Origin: Roseibium sp. MMSF_3544
Lineage (GTDB): Bacteria > Pseudomonadota > Alphaproteobacteria > Rhizobiales > Stappiaceae
Reading direction: 5' to 3'
NCBI RefSeq assembly: GCF_030732845.1
Contig: NZ_JASHKA010000027.1
Coordinates: 1-64,000 of the forward strand
DNA length: 64,000 bases
Each line of letters begins with the position of its first letter. The stretch's first letter is position 1. A model generated the notes under the pieces. It had not been told where the DNA came from. It ran no database searches and saw nothing but the letters and a program-made list of their open reading frames with translations. Below are positions 4,812-14,418 of this stretch, piece after piece. A program made the translations under genes and the position numbers.

Positions 4812-4951
4812 AACATTGCGCAACATTCCCCGTCTTGAGCGAAAAGTCACGAAGAGATTACGCCGGACAATGGTGATTATTGGCATTACATATTTCTCTC
4901 AAACAGGGTTTTCCTGTGATATGTTGATTGGATCAGGAGATCGGAGCAAAA

Positions 4952-5830
4952 ATGTCGCTTGCCGAATTGACGGAAACTGTGCAGGCCGCCGGACACGCTG
5001 GTGTGCCGCGTGCGCCCGCCTTTATCGTCACGCTTTACGGCGATGCGATCGAACCGCGGGGTGGAACGCTTTGGATGGGCGACCTCGTGACGTGTTGCGC
5101 GCAGCAGGGCATTAGCGAGAGCCTGGTGAGGACCGCCGTCTCCAGGCTGGTTGCCGCCGGCAAGCTTCTGGGTGAGAGGATCGGCCGCAAGAGCTATTAT
5201 CGGCTGACAGAGCCGGCACAAGCCGAGTTCAAGGAAGCCGCGCGGGTTCTTTATGCGCCGCCGCCTCAGGCACGCGGTTGGCTGATTGCACCGGTCGCAG
5301 AGGAGCCTCTGCCTGACGGCTGGGCGTTGATGGGGCAGCGAACGGCGATTGCGCCCAACCGTGATGATATCACCCGTTTGCCGGGGCCACTTCTCTCGGC
5401 CGAAACGATCCAGGACCCCGAGGGCTGGCCGAAACTTGCCGCAGATCTTTGGGAGCTTGACAGCGTCGCGGAACGCTACTTGCGGTTTTTATCGCGCTTC
5501 AAGTCCCTCGCATCTCTATTGGGCGCCGGCGCAGGGCAGTTGGACGTTTCCGGTGACCAGGCGCTGGCCTTGCGCTTGCAGCTTGTTCATCACTACAGGC
5601 TGGCAGCGCTCCGGGACCCGCGGCTGCCGCGCGAGGCTCTACCGGCCCGATGGCCGGGGGTTGAAGCGAGGCGATTGTTCGTGACGGCCTATTTGGCGCT
5701 TGCCGATGCCGCGGATGCCTATGTCGGCCGCACCTTTCGCGATTCAGACGGGCTACTGCTGTCCTCCACGGAGACGACCGGACTTCGTCTGGACCGGCTT
5801 GCCCGTGAGGCCTCGCTGATAAGCCGCTGA
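4952..5830 (+). CDS. paaX: PaaX-family transcriptional repressor of phenylacetate catabolism
   Basis: A 292-residue PaaX-like regulator. The N-terminal winged helix (about residues 20-85) contains FIVTLYGDAI, then SESLVRTAVSRLVAAGKL and the wing GRKSYYRLTEPA; the central and C-terminal domains (WLIAPVA..., LWELDSVAERYLRFLSRF) are the usual PaaX ligand and dimer parts. In E. coli, PaaX releases DNA on binding phenylacetyl-CoA. An in-frame TTG at 4928 exists, but the ATG at 4952 has GGAG five bases upstream. It lies immediately upstream of paaJ in the same direction, separated by 143 bp that hold two inverted repeats. Confidence 0.92.
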   Translation: MSLAELTETVQAAGHAGVPRAPAFIVTLYGDAIEPRGGTLWMGDLVTCCAQQGISESLVRTAVSRLVAAGKLLGERIGRKSYYRLTEPAQAEFKEAARVLYAPPPQARGWLIAPVAEEPLPDGWALMGQRTAIAPNRDDITRLPGPLLSAETIQDPEGWPKLAADLWELDSVAERYLRFLSRFKSLASLLGAGAGQLDVSGDQALALRLQLVHHYRLAALRDPRLPREALPARWPGVEARRLFVTAYLALADAADAYVGRTFRDSDGLLLSSTETTGLRLDRLAREASLISR

Positions 5831-7179: not shown

Positions 7180-7196
7180 TTTTGGTGGAAGGTCCG

Positions 7197-7763
7197 ATGA
7201 CACAGGATGCGATTGAAATCATAGATCACAGCGACCGGGTCGAGGCGCTTTTCGAGCCCTTCAGGCAAGCGCTCGGCGAGGACTATGCGGCGTATCGCGG
7301 TCATGTCTACCGCATCATAACTTACGCAATGCATTTTCTTGGTGGTGAGGAAACTCACCGGCCAATCGTGGAAACTGCGTTCGTTTATCACGACATCGGT
7401 CTATGGACGGATCGGGATCTGGCTTACCTGGAGCCGTCGGAAGCCCGGGCGCTGGCGGATAACGAGAAACTTGCATGGGGCTTCGATCCGAAGCTTCTGA
7501 GAGATATCATACATTGGCATCACAAGGTGTTTCCCTATTCGGGGCCGAATGCCGATGTGATCAACGCCTGCCGGAAAGCAGACTGGATCGACGCAAGCGG
7601 AGGCATGCTCCGCAAGGGTTTGTCGAAGGCGCAGGTAAAGGCTGTCGAGAGCGCCATTCCGAATTATGGTTTCGGAGATGTTCTGCAGCGTCTGGCCGGC
7701 GACCTTGGAGGCAATGTGATTTCTGGAAATCTCAAAGTTCTGCACCGGGTCTTCAAGGTCTGA
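7197..7763 (+). CDS. HD-domain protein inside the paa operon
   Basis: A 188-residue protein with an HD-type metal-hydrolase pattern: H36 in YRGHVYRI, H65-D66 in AFVYHDIGLW, H106/H108/H109 in DIIHWHHKVF and D129 in RKADWIDAS. HD proteins are metal-dependent phosphohydrolases or lyases. It sits 17 bp after paaJ and 23 bp before paaA, so is cotranscribed. GGAAGG precedes the ATG at 7197. None of the canonical Paa proteins is an HD protein; a housekeeping job on a toxic or dead-end CoA intermediate is conceivable but is only a guess. Confidence 0.75.
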   Translation: MTQDAIEIIDHSDRVEALFEPFRQALGEDYAAYRGHVYRIITYAMHFLGGEETHRPIVETAFVYHDIGLWTDRDLAYLEPSEARALADNEKLAWGFDPKLLRDIIHWHHKVFPYSGPNADVINACRKADWIDASGGMLRKGLSKAQVKAVESAIPNYGFGDVLQRLAGDLGGNVISGNLKVLHRVFKV

Positions 7764-8818: not shown

Positions 8819-9106
8819 ATGTCCAAGAAAGAATGGCCGCTCTGGGAAGTCTTTATTCGGGGACAGCACGGGCTGAACCACCGCCACGTCGGCAGCCTGC
8901 ATGCACCGGATGCTGAGATGGCAATCAACCATGCGCGTGATGTCTATACCCGTCGGCGCGAGGGCGTCTCAATCTGGGTGGTGCAGTCGAAGGACATCAC
9001 TGCCTCGAGCCCGTCGGAAAAGGGTCCGTTGTTCGACCCTGCCGAGAGCAAGACCTACCGCCATCCGACCTTTTTCGACATTCCCGAAGAAGTGGGGAAA
9101 ATGTGA
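8819..9106 (+). CDS. paaB: Phenylacetyl-CoA epoxidase subunit PaaB
   Basis: A 95-residue protein of canonical PaaB length. It starts with the typical EWPLWEVFIRGQHGLNHRHVGSLHAPD and includes the NARDVYTRR-like segment (NHARDVYTRRREGVSIWVV) of the family. PaaB is a small non-enzymatic subunit thought to bridge the PaaAC heterodimers and the reductase PaaE. It has GGGAGG upstream; its stop codon shares a base with the paaC start (TGATG), consistent with translational coupling. Confidence 0.96.
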   Translation: MSKKEWPLWEVFIRGQHGLNHRHVGSLHAPDAEMAINHARDVYTRRREGVSIWVVQSKDITASSPSEKGPLFDPAESKTYRHPTFFDIPEEVGKM

Positions 9107-9927
9107 TGTCCGAGGTCGAGACAAACACTGTTGCAACGCCGGATGATCCGTTCGTTGCGGATGCGGACTTGCGCCCGGCACTGTTCGAATGGCTGTGCCG
9201 GATGGGCGACAATGCGCTGATCCTCGGCCATCGCACCTCCGAATGGTGCGGGCACGGACCGGTGCTGGAAGAGGACATTGCCCTTGCCAATACCGCGCTC
9301 GACCTGATCGGTCACACCCAGATGTGGCTCGGTCTTGCCGGCGAAGTGGAAGGTGAAGGTCGCAACGCTGACAATCTCGCCTATTTGCGCGACGCCATGA
9401 AATTCAAAAATGTGCTTCTGGTCGAATTGCCGAAGGGCGATATGGCGGTGACGATGATGCGCGAATTCCTGTTCGACGCCTATCATCACCTGCTGCTGAC
9501 CTGGCTTGCGGAAAACTCAAAGAGCCCACGTGTTGCGGAAATCGCGGCAAAGGCCCTGAAGGAGGTCAGCTACCATCTCGACCGGGCCTCCGACATCGTG
9601 GTTCGCCTCGGCGACGGCACGCAGGAGAGCCATCGGCGGATGCAGGCGGCCCTCGATCTGCTGTGGCCCTATACCGGCGAACTATTTGCAGGCGACGATG
9701 TTGATGCAGCGATTGTTGAAGCCGGAATCGCACCGGATCTGGGCGCGTTGCATGCGGATTGGAATGGTCTCGTTAGCGAGGTACTGGAAGAAGCCACATT
9801 GCAAATGCCGGAGCCGGGCGGATACGCCCATCTGGGCGGCAAGCAGGGACGGCACACGGAGCACCTCGGCTTTATCCTTGCCGAAATGCAGTTCCTGCAA
9901 CGCGCCTATCCGGGTGCGAGCTGGTAG
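9106..9927 (+). CDS. paaC: Phenylacetyl-CoA epoxidase structural subunit PaaC
   Basis: A 273-residue ferritin-like helical protein that pairs with PaaA. Diagnostic segments are LCRMGDNALILGHRTSEWCGHGP, LANTALDLIGHTQMWLGLAGEVEGEGRNADNLAYLRD and KALKEVSYHLDRASDIVVRLGDGTQESHRRMQAAL. The PaaA ligand set is not kept, as expected for the structural subunit. The ATG at 9106 overlaps the paaB stop by one base; a GTG three bases earlier is also possible. Confidence 0.95.
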   Translation: MSEVETNTVATPDDPFVADADLRPALFEWLCRMGDNALILGHRTSEWCGHGPVLEEDIALANTALDLIGHTQMWLGLAGEVEGEGRNADNLAYLRDAMKFKNVLLVELPKGDMAVTMMREFLFDAYHHLLLTWLAENSKSPRVAEIAAKALKEVSYHLDRASDIVVRLGDGTQESHRRMQAALDLLWPYTGELFAGDDVDAAIVEAGIAPDLGALHADWNGLVSEVLEEATLQMPEPGGYAHLGGKQGRHTEHLGFILAEMQFLQRAYPGASW

Positions 9928-9936
9928 GGGGAGATC

Positions 9937-10458
9937 ATGTCCACCACCCTTCTTCCGGCAACCGATGAGGTCTGGACCTGGCTCGACGAGGTGCCCGACC
10001 CTGAAATTCCCGTGGTTTCGGTCACCGAACTCGGCATTGTGAGAGACGTGCAATATGACGGCGGCACACTCGTCGTTGCTGTCACGCCGACCTATTCGGG
10101 CTGCCCGGCAACGGCCGTGATTGATCTGATGATCGAGGACAAGCTGCGCGAGAAGGGCATCGACGATTTGCGCCTGGAACGCCGCCTGTCGCCACCATGG
10201 ACCACGGACTGGGTGACGGAAGAGGCGCGCGAGAAGCTGAAGGCCTTCGGGATCGCGCCACCAATCGACGGAACCGCGTCCGACGGCATGAGTGCCAAGG
10301 CTGCGCGTCTTTCCGGTGAGACCAACCTTACCGTTGAATGCCCACGCTGCGGGTCCGCCAACACCGAACGGGTCAGCCAATACGGATCGACCCCCTGCAA
10401 GGCCGCGTGGCGCTGCAGGGACTGTCTCGAACCGTTCGATTATTTCAAGTGCATCTAA
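9937..10458 (+). CDS. paaD: Phenylacetate epoxidase maturation protein PaaD
   Basis: A 173-residue protein. The N-terminal MIP18/DUF59 domain (residues about 10-85) holds VPDPEIPVVSVTELGIVRDV and the conserved TPTYSGCPATAVI. The C-terminal zinc ribbon has CPRC followed by CKAAWRCRDC and the family end EPFDYFKCI. PaaD is thought to aid Fe-S or di-iron assembly of the epoxidase, by analogy with SUF-associated DUF59 proteins. It lies 9 bp after paaC and 23 bp before paaE. Confidence 0.95.
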   Translation: MSTTLLPATDEVWTWLDEVPDPEIPVVSVTELGIVRDVQYDGGTLVVAVTPTYSGCPATAVIDLMIEDKLREKGIDDLRLERRLSPPWTTDWVTEEAREKLKAFGIAPPIDGTASDGMSAKAARLSGETNLTVECPRCGSANTERVSQYGSTPCKAAWRCRDCLEPFDYFKCI

Positions 10459-10481: not shown

Positions 10482-11558
10482 ATGGCACGTTTCCATTCGC
10501 TTGAAGTGACCGACATCCGCCGCGATACGCGCGATGCCGTCGTGGTCACGCTTAAACCAGAGGAGTCCGAGGCGGATGCGTTCGGCTTCACCCAGGGCCA
10601 GTATCTGACATTCCGCCGCGATTTCGACGGTGAAGAGCTGCGCCGGTCCTACTCGATCTGTGCGGGGCTCGACGAAGGCTGTCTGAAGGTCGGGATCAAA
10701 AGGGTCGAAGGCGGGGCCTTCTCAACCTGGGCCAACGAAGAGCTGAAGGTCGGCGATCACCTGGACGCCATGGCGCCGATGGGCCGCTTCTTCACCGAGC
10801 TGGAACCTGCGAGCGCGAAGACCTATCTCGGCTTTGCCGGCGGTTCCGGCATCACACCGGTGCTGTCCATCATCAAGACAGTGCTGGCACGCGAGCCGCA
10901 AAGCACTTTCACGCTGATTTACGCCAACCGGCAGACCAGCTCGATCATGTTCCGCGAGGAATTGGAAGATCTGAAAAATCAGTATCTTGGCCGATTTTCG
11001 CTGATACATATCCTGGAAACGGAGTCCCAGGAGATCGATCTCTTCACCGGCAGGATCGATGCAGAGAAAATGGAACTGCTGTTCCGCCTCTGGATCGATG
11101 CGGAGGAGGTTGACACGGCCTTCATCTGCGGCCCCGAGCCGATGATGCTGACAATCGCCGAAAGCTTGCGCAAACACGGACTGTCGGACGACCAGATTCG
11201 CTTTGAACTGTTTGCATCGTCACAGCCGGGCCGCGCCAAGACGAAGGCAAGGTCCGAAGCGGTGAATGCAGGGGCCGGGACTTGCGAGGTGTTGGTCACG
11301 CTCGACGGCTCGACCCGCAATTTCCAGATGGAAAAGGACGGCACCTCGGTTCTGGACGCAGCAGTCGCCAACGCCCTGGACGCGCCCTTTGCCTGCAAGG
11401 CAGGCGTCTGTTCGACCTGCCGCGCGAAAGTGATCGAGGGCGAGGTGGAAATGGAAGTGAACCACGCGCTGGAAGACTACGAAGTTCGCGCGGGCTATGT
11501 CCTTTCCTGCCAGTGTATTCCCGTTTCGGACAAGGTGGTGATCAGTTATGACGAATGA
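10482..11558 (+). CDS. paaE: Phenylacetyl-CoA epoxidase reductase PaaE
   Basis: A 358-residue flavin/iron-sulfur reductase that passes electrons from NAD(P)H to PaaA. The FAD-binding motif RRSYSIC lies near residue 50; the nucleotide-binding segment GSGITPVLSII and CGPEPMM follow; a plant-type 2Fe-2S domain ends the protein with ACKAGVCSTCRAK and a distal Cys in VLSCQC. The ATG at 10482 follows GGGGAGGAG; the in-frame stretch back to 10338 overlaps paaD and is not real. Its last 11 bases overlap the next gene. Confidence 0.95.
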   Translation: MARFHSLEVTDIRRDTRDAVVVTLKPEESEADAFGFTQGQYLTFRRDFDGEELRRSYSICAGLDEGCLKVGIKRVEGGAFSTWANEELKVGDHLDAMAPMGRFFTELEPASAKTYLGFAGGSGITPVLSIIKTVLAREPQSTFTLIYANRQTSSIMFREELEDLKNQYLGRFSLIHILETESQEIDLFTGRIDAEKMELLFRLWIDAEEVDTAFICGPEPMMLTIAESLRKHGLSDDQIRFELFASSQPGRAKTKARSEAVNAGAGTCEVLVTLDGSTRNFQMEKDGTSVLDAAVANALDAPFACKAGVCSTCRAKVIEGEVEMEVNHALEDYEVRAGYVLSCQCIPVSDKVVISYDE

Positions 11559-12327
11559 AGCAATCCTTGCGGATGACGATACCATGTCCCTTGCCGACTA
11601 TCTGGAAAGAGGCGGCAAGCTGACGTCACCGGAAAACGTGCCACCGCGGTATCGGGGTGAATTGCTGCGCCTGATGTCTTCTTTTGTCGATAGCGAGCTC
11701 GCCGGGTCGGCGGGGTTTGCAGATGCCATCAACTGGGCACCGGGTCTGAAAGAACGGATTGCAGCCAGCCGGATCACCCTGGAAAAGGTCGATCATGCCG
11801 AACGCGTTCTCGATCTCATGAGTGATTTCGGCACCGACAAGGCCCTTTACAACAAGGCGCACGCCTGGTCGGCACGCCAGTCGCGCGATGCCCAGGTCGA
11901 CGCAAAGCGGCAGGGCGGCGACATGCGCCTCTCCGTCTTTCATTATCCGCTGGAAGGCTGGACCGATGCAGTTGTCATGAACACGCTGATGGGGATGGCA
12001 ACCGTCTATCAGCTGCAGGAACAGGCGCGCACCTCTTACCAGCCGCTGGGCGAGGTGTTTCGCGAGATTCTGCCACGCGAGAAACGTCATATGGAGCTCG
12101 GTCTGGAGGGTCTGGAGGATCTGCTGAAAGACGATACGGCGCGCGCCGAAGCTCAGGCATCCGTCAACTATTGGATGCCGCGCGTTGCCGCGACCTTCGG
12201 ACCGGCCCAGTCAGAGCGCTTCGACCGCCTGAAGAAACTTGGCCTCCGCCACACCGACAACGAGACGCTTCGCGCCGCATGGCAAGCTGATGCGGACGCA
12301 CGGCTGGCTCAATTGAAGCTCGCCTGA
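11548..12327 (+). CDS. PaaA-like protein with altered di-iron site
   Basis: A 259-residue ferritin-like protein, overlapping paaE by 11 bp and ending 21 bp before paaZ. It aligns without gaps to PaaA over residues 133-181 (YP....W.D ... RTS..P ... E..H) and around SELAG. Compared with the PaaA ligands, E50, H83, E178 and H181 are kept, but the position of E89 is Lys80 and that of D143 is Gly149, so a normal di-iron centre is unlikely. It is not a standard PaaABCDE part. It may be a structural partner, an alternative PaaC-like subunit or a regulator of the complex; the role is unknown. Confidence 0.85.
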   Translation: MTNEAILADDDTMSLADYLERGGKLTSPENVPPRYRGELLRLMSSFVDSELAGSAGFADAINWAPGLKERIAASRITLEKVDHAERVLDLMSDFGTDKALYNKAHAWSARQSRDAQVDAKRQGGDMRLSVFHYPLEGWTDAVVMNTLMGMATVYQLQEQARTSYQPLGEVFREILPREKRHMELGLEGLEDLLKDDTARAEAQASVNYWMPRVAATFGPAQSERFDRLKKLGLRHTDNETLRAAWQADADARLAQLKLA

Positions 12328-12348: not shown

Positions 12349-14418
12349 ATGAACGGGACGGGAACGGCCGCGCGCCGGCTGGAAAGCTATGTCGAGGGGG
12401 CGTGGCGCCAAGGGCACGGTGACGGTAAGCCGGTGCTGAATGCGGCAACTGGCGATATCCACGCGCTGATCGGCACGGATGGCCTCGACTTCAGGGCGGC
12501 GCTGGAATGGGGCCGAGAGGTCGGCGGTCCGGCTCTGCGCGCCATGACCATTCACGAGCGCGCGCTGATGCTGAAGGCTGTCGGCCTGAAACTCATGGAC
12601 CAGAAGGAAGAGTTCTATTTTGAGAACTTCGCGACTGGAGCGACACGCAAGGATGGGTGGATCGATATTGAGGGAGGTATCGGAACGCTCCTGACCTTTG
12701 CTTCCAAGGCCCGGCGCGAGCTGCCGAACACCAAGGTGCTGACGGAAGGGCCGGTCGAGCCTCTCTCGCGCGACAGTTCCTTTGCCGCCCAGCATATCCT
12801 GACCCCGCTTCTGGGTGTTGCCGTCCACATAAATGCCTTCAATTTCCCGGTCTGGGGCATGCTGGAAAAGATCGCACCGACGCTGATCGCCGGGATGCCC
12901 TGCATTGTCAAACCCGCCTCTCAGACCGCTTATCTGACCGAAATTGTGGTGCGGCGCATTCTTGAAACCGGCATCCTGCCCGATGGTGCCCTGCAGATCG
13001 TGACCGGATCTGCCGGCGATCTCCTGGATCATGTTGTTGAACAGGACGTCGTCACCTTCACCGGGTCCGCGTCCACCGGACAGAAACTGAAATCCAGCCC
13101 TGCGGTCTTGAAGCACTCGGTTCGCTTCACCATGGAGGCGGACAGTCTCAATGCCTCGATTCTCGGTATCGACGCCGCACCTGGTACGGAGGAGTTTGAC
13201 CTCTTCGTCAAGGAAGTTAGCCGGGAAATGACTGTCAAGGCGGGACAGAAATGTACGGCGATCCGGCGCATCATCGTGCCGAACGCACATGAAGACGCCG
13301 TGATTGATGCGCTCTCCAGGCGTCTTGCCTCCACACCGGTTGGATTGCCGGATGATGAGAACGCGCGCATGGGGGCGCTGGTTTCGCTGAAAGACCGCGA
13401 AGATGTCAAATCCAAGGTCAGTGTTCTCGCCGGAGAAGCGGAAATCGTCTCCGGTTCGCTGAATGGCGTCGATCTCGTTTCCGGAGATGCGGAGAAGGGC
13501 GCGTTCATGGCTCCGATGCTGCTGCGTTGCGCCAATCCTGTTGTCGCCAATGCTGTCCACTCAGTCGAGGCCTTCGGACCGGTCGCAACCGTGATGGCTT
13601 ATCAGGACAATGACGAAGCCGTCGCGTTGGCGCAAAAGGGCCGCGGGTCGCTTGTTTCGTCCCTGTTCACGAATGACGGCAGGGTCGCACACGACGTGGT
13701 GACCGGACTGGCCCCATTCCATGGACGGGTTCTGATCGGCAACCGGCGCTCGGCGAAAAGTTCAACCGGGCACGGCTCGCCGCTTGCACCGCTTGTGCAC
13801 GGTGGTCCCGGTCGGGCCGGGGGCGGCGAGGAAATGGGCGGTATGCGTGGTGTCAAACACTTCATGCAACGCACCGCCGTTCAGGGCACGCCGGAGCTTT
13901 TGTCCGCCGTCACCGGACAGTGGATGGAAGGCGCCCCCGTGCGGGCGGATGTTCACCCGTTCCGCAAATCCCTGGCCGAGCTCAGGATCGGAGATCAGAT
14001 CGTCACCAGGTCGCGCGAAGTCTCATTGGAAGATGTCGAGCATTTTGCCGAATTTACCGGCGACACGTTCTACGCCCATATGGACAGCGAGGCAGCAAGG
14101 GCCAATCCATTCTTCGACGACCGGGTGGCGCACGGCTACCTGATTGCCTCTTTTGCAGCAGGGTTGTTCGTTGATCCCGAGCCGGGACCTGTGCTCGCCA
14201 ATTATGGCGTCGACAATCTGCGTTTCCTGACGCCGGTTTATTTCGGCGACAGTCTTCAGGTGCGTCTCACCTGCAAGGAGATTAACCCGCGTGAAAATGC
14301 AGACCATGGCGAAGTTCGATGGGATTGCCAGGTCACCAACCAGAAGGACGAGATCGTCGCGCAATATGACGTTCTGACAATGGTGGCGAAGGAGTGGCCT
14401 ACGGCAGCAAACGATTAG
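12349..14418 (+). CDS. paaZ: Bifunctional oxepin-CoA hydrolase/semialdehyde dehydrogenase PaaZ
   Basis: A 689-residue fusion of usual PaaZ length. The N-terminal aldehyde dehydrogenase (about 1-530) has FNFPVWG, TFTGSASTG, the general base E263 (TMEADSLN) and nucleophile C302 (GQKCTAIRR), oxidising 3-oxo-5,6-dehydrosuberyl-CoA semialdehyde. The C-terminal MaoC-like hot-dog domain (about 545-685) has the hydratase signature GDTFYAHMD...RVAHGYLIASFAAG, opening oxepin-CoA. An in-frame TTG at 12331 precedes the chosen ATG, which follows GGGGAAAGGA. Last core gene of block 1; a second, single-domain dehydrogenase of this type (paaN) starts block 2. Confidence 0.95.
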   Translation: MNGTGTAARRLESYVEGAWRQGHGDGKPVLNAATGDIHALIGTDGLDFRAALEWGREVGGPALRAMTIHERALMLKAVGLKLMDQKEEFYFENFATGATRKDGWIDIEGGIGTLLTFASKARRELPNTKVLTEGPVEPLSRDSSFAAQHILTPLLGVAVHINAFNFPVWGMLEKIAPTLIAGMPCIVKPASQTAYLTEIVVRRILETGILPDGALQIVTGSAGDLLDHVVEQDVVTFTGSASTGQKLKSSPAVLKHSVRFTMEADSLNASILGIDAAPGTEEFDLFVKEVSREMTVKAGQKCTAIRRIIVPNAHEDAVIDALSRRLASTPVGLPDDENARMGALVSLKDREDVKSKVSVLAGEAEIVSGSLNGVDLVSGDAEKGAFMAPMLLRCANPVVANAVHSVEAFGPVATVMAYQDNDEAVALAQKGRGSLVSSLFTNDGRVAHDVVTGLAPFHGRVLIGNRRSAKSSTGHGSPLAPLVHGGPGRAGGGEEMGGMRGVKHFMQRTAVQGTPELLSAVTGQWMEGAPVRADVHPFRKSLAELRIGDQIVTRSREVSLEDVEHFAEFTGDTFYAHMDSEAARANPFFDDRVAHGYLIASFAAGLFVDPEPGPVLANYGVDNLRFLTPVYFGDSLQVRLTCKEINPRENADHGEVRWDCQVTNQKDEIVAQYDVLTMVAKEWPTAAND

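Follow-up and report, generated by a model that had tools for sequence, protein, structure and literature searches.

Phenylacetate epoxidase is described as an assembly of PaaA, PaaB, PaaC and PaaE, with PaaD as a helper. Its catalytic subunit PaaA binds iron through E42, E72, H75, D126, E155 and H158, according to PMC4498308, which also gives a lysine bridge of K68 with E49, E72 and D126 and a segment around Leu286 that serves as a lid to the pocket. Helices B and C are the elements of the PaaA–PaaC dimer (PMC9493321). PaaA and PaaC have been put forward as pathway markers in a comparative study of 2026, and in the parts of it that were covered no sixth subunit is named (PMC13186573). Searches of open papers, judged by the titles and abstract openings listed, gave no description of the gene reported here or of a PaaA-like sixth subunit.

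We analysed a paa operon in a 64,000-nucleotide stretch of Roseibium DNA (the window), in which a sixth gene, here called P1, directly follows paaABCDE. By its sequence, P1 is of PaaA type, and its di-iron site is disabled.

The paa operon of the window

The genes run, all on the forward strand, in the order paaX-type regulator, thiolase, a small gene, paaA, paaB, paaC, paaD, paaE, P1 and paaZ (Table 1). The original prediction that P1 overlaps paaE and is closely followed by paaZ was correct: the overlap measures 11 nt, and the probable ATG of paaZ lies at 12349. Because the two genes overlap, P1 would be made with the oxygenase through translational coupling to paaE. PF05138 is matched three times in the genome of the window, by paaA, paaC and P1. 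A frameshift or pseudogene is ruled out by the intact 259-residue reading frame and by purifying selection.

The small gene between the thiolase gene and paaA (7182–7763) encodes 193 residues with zero Pfam matches; by eye, its product resembles an HD-type hydrolase. The same genome has a second PaaB-like gene (L199 5162–5458; G000:C55:182694-182930), which scores 101.6 bits, above the TIGR02157 cut-off, and adjoins what appears by eye to be a second PaaK gene, distant from the genome's PaaA and PaaC.

Table 1. Genes of the paa operon and residues of P1 discussed in the text (window coordinates).
Feature	Position	Strand	Basis or remark
paaX-type regulator gene	4928..5830	+	Pfam PaaX match; under the NCBIfam PaaX cut-off
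paaA	7787..8785	+	full ligand set
paaB	8819..9106	+	family model
paaC	9106..9927	+	family model; start GTG 9103 or ATG 9106
paaD	9937..10458	+	family model
paaE, reductase gene	10482..11558	+	start inferred from family model
P1, PF05138 protein of 259 aa, sixth gene after paaABCDE	11548..12327	+	ATG start
Overlap of paaE stop and P1 start, 11 nt	11548..11558	+	
P1 E50, PaaA ligand E42	11695..11697	+	alignment; Glu 88/89
P1 F57, at PaaA E49 (lysine-bridge acid)	11716..11718	+	alignment
P1 I76, at PaaA K68 (lysine bridge)	11773..11775	+	alignment
P1 E79-K80: K80 at ligand E72, E79 at PaaA D71	11782..11787	+	both invariant 89/89
P1 H83, ligand H75	11794..11796	+	His 83/89
P1 residues 101-127, family-specific segment	11848..11928	+	invariant Y101, W107, R110, R113, R121, D125, M126, R127
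P1 G149, at ligand D126	11992..11994	+	invariant 89/89
P1 E178..H181, ligands E155 and H158	12079..12090	+	each 89/89
paaZ	12349..14418	+	ATG start likely; listed ORF from TTG 12331

Family membership and predicted fold

Against PF05138 (PaaA_PaaC), P1 scored 79.2 bits, with a gathering cut-off of 28.5. It fell below both equivalog models, with 58.7 bits against the PaaA model TIGR02156 (cut-off 280) and 32.3 bits against the PaaC model TIGR02158 (cut-off 133.35), and it departs from the six-ligand pattern of PaaA (E, E..H, D, E..H) at two sites, K80 and G149, in 89 of 89 P1 sequences. In a tree of 52 PF05138 proteins, some of whose other rows have long branches, P1 and its outside copies formed a clade of their own (support 98/97), separate from the PaaA and PaaC clades (each 100/100). 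The outside P1 copies and the other PF05138 members entered the alignment and the tree as residue ranges trimmed manually out of open frames. The missed equivalog models and the separate clade agree with the original prediction that P1 is not one of the five canonical subunits.

An AlphaFold2 model of P1 alone, built on 56 sequences (55 of the best 80 loci plus the window), reached a pLDDT of 88.7 and a pTM of 0.86. The best among the matches listed for this model was PaaA, with Z 26.1 and an rmsd of 1.8–2.1 Å over 227–232 residues; further matches listed were SSO1313 (Z 25.2), PaaC (Z 21.8) and BoxB (Z 20.5). Since the aligned range stops at P1 259 and PaaA 239, PaaA residues 240–309 have no counterpart in P1: this C-terminal stretch of 70 residues, which contains the Leu286 lid (PMC4498308), is unmatched in the predicted fold. 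Model confidence was lower at P1 residues 101–130 (block means 63 to 76).

The likeness to PaaC suggested for P1 was not upheld: P1 forms its own clade, its model lies nearer PaaA, and it keeps two ligands, at E42 and E155, that PaaC has lost. Tree, fold score and ligand pattern together rule out a diverged PaaC. By analogy, a PaaC-like role for P1 is possible.

The former iron site

When P1 is aligned by MAFFT with PaaA, PaaC and further PF05138 proteins, the six iron-ligand positions of PaaA are occupied in P1 by E50, K80, H83, G149, E178 and H181, exactly as the original prediction had them. The residues of E. coli K-12 PaaA (NC_000913) at these sites agree with the numbering in PMC4498308. 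PaaA of the window is offset from E. coli PaaA by 17 residues, from which the predicted gap-free block of P1 133–181 against window PaaA 127–175 follows. Across 89 P1 sequences, E79, K80, G149, E178 and H181 are invariant, E50 is kept in 88 and H83 in 83, with Asn in four and Ser in two of the others; 76 columns are conserved at 98% or more. Because they are conserved over 89 sequences, the ligand changes are neither chance nor the mark of a single odd genome. The claim that a Lys replaces a Glu stands for K80 at E72. The other ligand lost is D126, an Asp, and conservation of H83 is not strict.

The bridge set of PaaA, E49, K68, E72 and D126, reads F57, I76, K80 and G149 in P1. The two lost ligands, E72 and D126, both sit in this lysine-bridge network, which means that the whole network has been replaced. 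PaaC has likewise lost E72 and, in addition, E42 and E155, with A, C, T or Q and V, A or S in their places across four aligned rows; P1 keeps both. Of the original prediction, a PaaA-type product of the paa operon whose di-iron site is disabled is upheld.

A phmmer alignment of P1 with Sulfolobus SSO1313 (4mud) runs without a gap at the ExxH motif, pairing K80 with its Glu and E79 with the preceding acid. Pairwise phmmer alignments of P1 with PaaA are gapped in the K80 helix, where the pairing of K80 with E72 is not seen, so it is the multiple alignment and the 4mud comparison that place K80 and E79. We considered E79 as a substitute ligand and rejected it: the residue aligned with it is an acid in PaaA (D71) and also in PaaC and most of the remaining PF05138 rows. 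The geometry of the putative pseudo-site is one that we infer from sequence.

Distribution, history and selection

A scan of named GTDB genomes returned 324 relatives of P1, of which only the best 80 were kept, so that divergent copies are under-represented. These best 80 of 324 include Roseibium, Salipiger, Paracoccus, Rhizobium, Shinella, Martelella and others, as well as records named Salinisphaera, Burkholderiaceae and Enemella. Plasmid records mostly label the protein 'Phenylacetic acid catabolic protein', for example PDEN_RS23920 of Paracoccus denitrificans PD1222. The record titled Enemella evansiae (L081), an actinomycete, holds a paaABCDE-P1 operon whose proteins group with alphaproteobacterial ones, which would reflect contamination or recent transfer.

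In these 80 loci and eight more, P1 starts no more than 171 nt from the paaE stop in every case (88/88), and, by script-chosen starts, the identical 11-nt overlap recurs in 45 of the 88. In 81 of the 88, the start of a paaZ-type gene lies no more than 350 nt downstream. L080, L087 and L102 keep paaABCDE-P1 with no paaZ adjoining P1, which weakens the idea of P1 as a partner of PaaZ; in L081 paaZ lies on the opposite strand.

P1 occurs in 12 of 25 genomes of the same genus, in 10 of 61 genomes of the family sample and in 10 of 398 genomes of the phylum sample, the window's included; in the other nine of these ten it adjoins paaE every time. In the class sample, 31 of 33 PaaA-bearing genomes gave no P1 match at E 1e-20. 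P1 lies behind paaE in all 88 loci, but four further genomes carry it with no PaaA, PaaB or PaaC above cut-off.

On a tree of concatenated PaaA, PaaB, PaaC and PaaE from 75 loci and the window (77 were chosen; L167 and L190 were dropped, having no paaE in the stretch), which took in only 42 P1-bearing loci, the presence of P1 required four changes, for which a single gain followed by three losses is the simplest account. The losses fall at L045, at L186 with L189, and at L188; at the thresholds used, P1 gave no match in the four genomes concerned, G014 of the genus set and G174, G158 and G190 of the class sample. One gain and three losses in the sampled operons mark P1 as accessory, and since close operon relatives lost it and kept paaABCDE, it is not a core part. 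Together with its absence from 31 of 33 PaaA-bearing genomes, the three inferred losses indicate that the oxygenase works without P1.

Where it is present, P1 is under purifying selection. Its dN/dS was 0.07–0.09, as against 0.08–0.11 for PaaC, in six comparisons in which dS was mostly near or above 1.

Conserved surfaces and co-variation

Helices B and C are the most conserved parts of P1, with mean identities of 0.85 and 0.74 compared with 0.64 overall. Within helix C, with faces assigned by helix phase and not from coordinates, identity was 0.85 on the side pointing away from where iron would sit in PaaA and 0.62 on the side pointing towards it. PaaA has the same outward bias in helix C (0.99 versus 0.90), so the pattern is not special to P1. 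Together with this outward bias, which PaaA shares, the conservation of the two helices favours partner binding over catalysis.

We also compared distance matrices by partial correlation in the 37 genomes that had all the genes and a long PaaZ match. P1 correlated with PaaE at 0.42 (bootstrap 5–95% 0.14 to 0.58), with PaaB at 0.27 (0.11 to 0.40) and with PaaZ at 0.22 (−0.04 to 0.58); the value was 0.06 for PaaD and about 0 for PaaA and PaaC. By the same method, the known pairs PaaA–PaaC and PaaA–PaaE gave 0.33 and 0.08. The low PaaA–PaaE value and the 0.22 for the neighbour PaaZ indicate that the method is weak here, and the P1–PaaE correlation may be inflated by linkage because paaE adjoins P1. 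The P1–PaaE correlation and a flavodoxin gene that neighbours P1 in other genomes are hints that point to the electron-donor side.

Genomes with P1 and without PaaABC

Among 289 alphaproteobacterial genomes, we found six clear P1 matches and one weak match of another type (G653, E 1e-21), which has all six PaaA-type ligands and was counted as another PF05138 type. Two of the six, G000 and G617, carry both P1 and PaaABC. The other four, with completeness of 90–96%, are G562 (locus L145), G592 (L146), G647 (L147/L148) and G554 (L149/L197); genome-wide they gave no PaaA or PaaC above cut-off and no PaaB match, and in the local stretches L145–L149 and L197 there was no match to PaaD or PaaE. P1 had been thought specialised to the phenylacetyl-CoA epoxidase, a view that these four of six genomes speak against. 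Genes in high-GC loci were called as composition-scored open reading frames.

In these four genomes, P1 retains K and G at the two lost-ligand sites. It lies in an operon with paaG, paaI and paaK, co-directional with paaG, and paaH and paaJ are present too in two of the four loci. A flavodoxin gene adjoins P1 in all four, confirmed by Pfam in three. Full-length paaZ is absent from all four genomes, G647 having the dehydrogenase part alone.

All four genomes also encode a second PaaA-like protein, here called Y, which in the three copies aligned out of four has five of the six ligands and the bridge Lys. Y lies 7 to 16 kb from P1 in three genomes and on a separate contig in G554. Beside it in all four loci is a protein of about 140 residues, three copies of which were run against Pfam and gave no match; a paaX-type gene adjoins Y in three of the four, with none matched in L145, and flavin reductases lie near Y in three loci. 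Elsewhere among the 289 genomes, Y was found at E 1e-20 only as fragments in G595. None of the 398 phylum-sample genomes had a homologue at E 1e-30, and a plasmid search gave distant matches only, the best among those listed with 27.8% identity. The chance that all four Y genomes would fall within the six P1 genomes is about 5e-8 under an assumption of independence that holds only roughly.

Further PF05138 diversity was seen along the way. Alphaproteobacteria hold several more PF05138 types, with full or partial ligand sets, and two long open frames (L157 6273–7916 and L153 5111–7135) carry PF05138-like stretches, one of them two. A cytochrome P450 gene (L197 3578–4834) lies near the PaaX-type gene and Y of G554.

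Discussion

We propose that P1 serves aryl-CoA oxygenation as an accessory subunit with no catalysis of its own, a reading to which we give an even chance and for which we infer the absence of iron and of catalysis, the partner and the role. On this reading P1 is a paralogue with the PaaA/PaaC fold that has lost its di-iron site as one unit, with K80 probably lying among the remaining carboxylates E50 and E178 as a buried salt-bridge centre in place of iron. It would probably act through the conserved helices B and C and the Arg-rich segment on the oxygenase or on its electron donor, which would be PaaE here and a flavodoxin in genomes with P1 and no PaaABC, and could tune assembly, reductase docking or coupling. 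Perhaps, then, P1 sits on the electron-donor side. The reading as an oxygenase subunit fits less well with the PaaABC-less genomes, where P1 is co-directional with paaG and away from Y.

Gene context suggests that the PaaABC-less systems are possibly an alternative phenylacetyl-CoA oxygenase. We tentatively extend the proposal to a P1 that is a shared, iron-free component of two phenylacetyl-CoA oxygenases, PaaABCE and an undescribed one composed of Y, P1, a flavodoxin donor and the small protein beside Y, and that in both would serve the electron-donor side through its lysine-rebuilt pseudo-active site; this wider scheme we hold to be rather less likely than not.

The main rival to an accessory subunit is a metal-free carrier or enzyme for reactive CoA esters, whose PaaA-like pocket would hold or convert the epoxide or oxepin-CoA on its way to PaaG and PaaZ. 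On this account, which we hold to be unlikely, one can understand that F131, at the site of the substrate-orienting F108 of PaaA, is Phe in 86 of 89 sequences, and that invariant Arg residues (110, 113, 121 and 127) lie in or near the segment matching the PaaA pocket entrance, where M126 aligns with K103 of PaaA. Apart from M126, the invariant residues of this segment (seven of eight) remain at least 98% conserved when P1 copies from outside paaABCDE operons are added, and the neighbouring genes, paaZ-type in 81 of 88 loci and paaG in the four other systems, use these very intermediates. However, the part of PaaA that closes the pocket (240–309) has no counterpart, paaZ is not beside P1 in three loci and lies on the opposite strand in L081, and in helix C conservation is lower at the positions that face the core.

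P1 could instead be an assembly or maturation factor that loads iron or stabilises PaaA until it meets PaaC. On its own PaaA does not stay soluble, and in vivo the enzyme already needs PaaD as an accessory (PMC4498308 and PMC9493321); P1, for its part, is similar to PaaA, and its gene overlaps paaE in many of the operons. The lack of a detectable partial correlation of P1 with PaaA, PaaC or PaaD and the persistence of P1 in genomes with no PaaA above cut-off nevertheless make such a factor decidedly unlikely. Quite improbable, in our view, is a P1 that still binds metal at a mononuclear site of E50, H83, E178 and H181 as an oxidase or oxygenase in its own right: two Glu and two His are indeed left, three of them all but invariant, but H83 gives way to Asn or Ser in six of 89 sequences whereas K80 never varies, and a Lys at the position of a bridging Glu should repel a metal. 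A functionless relic, for which the three inferred losses from operons that keep paaABCDE might speak, is very unlikely and scarcely credible given the low dN/dS and the 76 highly conserved columns.

In many alphaproteobacteria the genes for the epoxidase, the enzyme that opens phenylacetic acid breakdown, are directly followed by a conserved sixth one, whose product looks like the iron subunit but has its iron site rebuilt around a lysine. Such a gene would fill a gap in an enzyme that has been studied in depth, and would show clearly how a di-iron site can become a pseudo-site centred on lysine. Four genomes with P1, PaaK, PaaG and PaaI and without PaaABC above the cut-offs point to a second route of phenylacetyl-CoA oxygenation, one that surveys based on PaaA and PaaC as markers would be expected to overlook.

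The closest described relative is PaaA, the catalytic subunit of the E. coli 1,2-phenylacetyl-CoA epoxidase (PDB 3pw8 and others), which shares with P1 its fold (Z 26), its helix core, its operon and the segments SE.G, YP..W.D and E..H. Compared with PaaA, P1 has lost two ligands and the lysine bridge, has an added Arg-rich segment and nothing matching PaaA 240–309, and falls into a separate clade. The structural subunit PaaC resembles P1 in fold (Z 22), size, a broken iron site and the loss of E72; unlike P1, it has also lost E42 and E155, it belongs to a separate clade, and it is itself present in the same operon. SSO1313 of Sulfolobus solfataricus (PDB 4mud), a PF05138-like protein, has the fold (Z 25) and length of P1, with ExxH where P1 has KxxH. 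Outside the family, the metal-free R2 protein of class Ie ribonucleotide reductase keeps its radical function, and we know of no function of that kind for P1. R2e is a ferritin-like di-iron protein in which a Lys replaces a metal-binding Glu, an analogy to K80 of P1.
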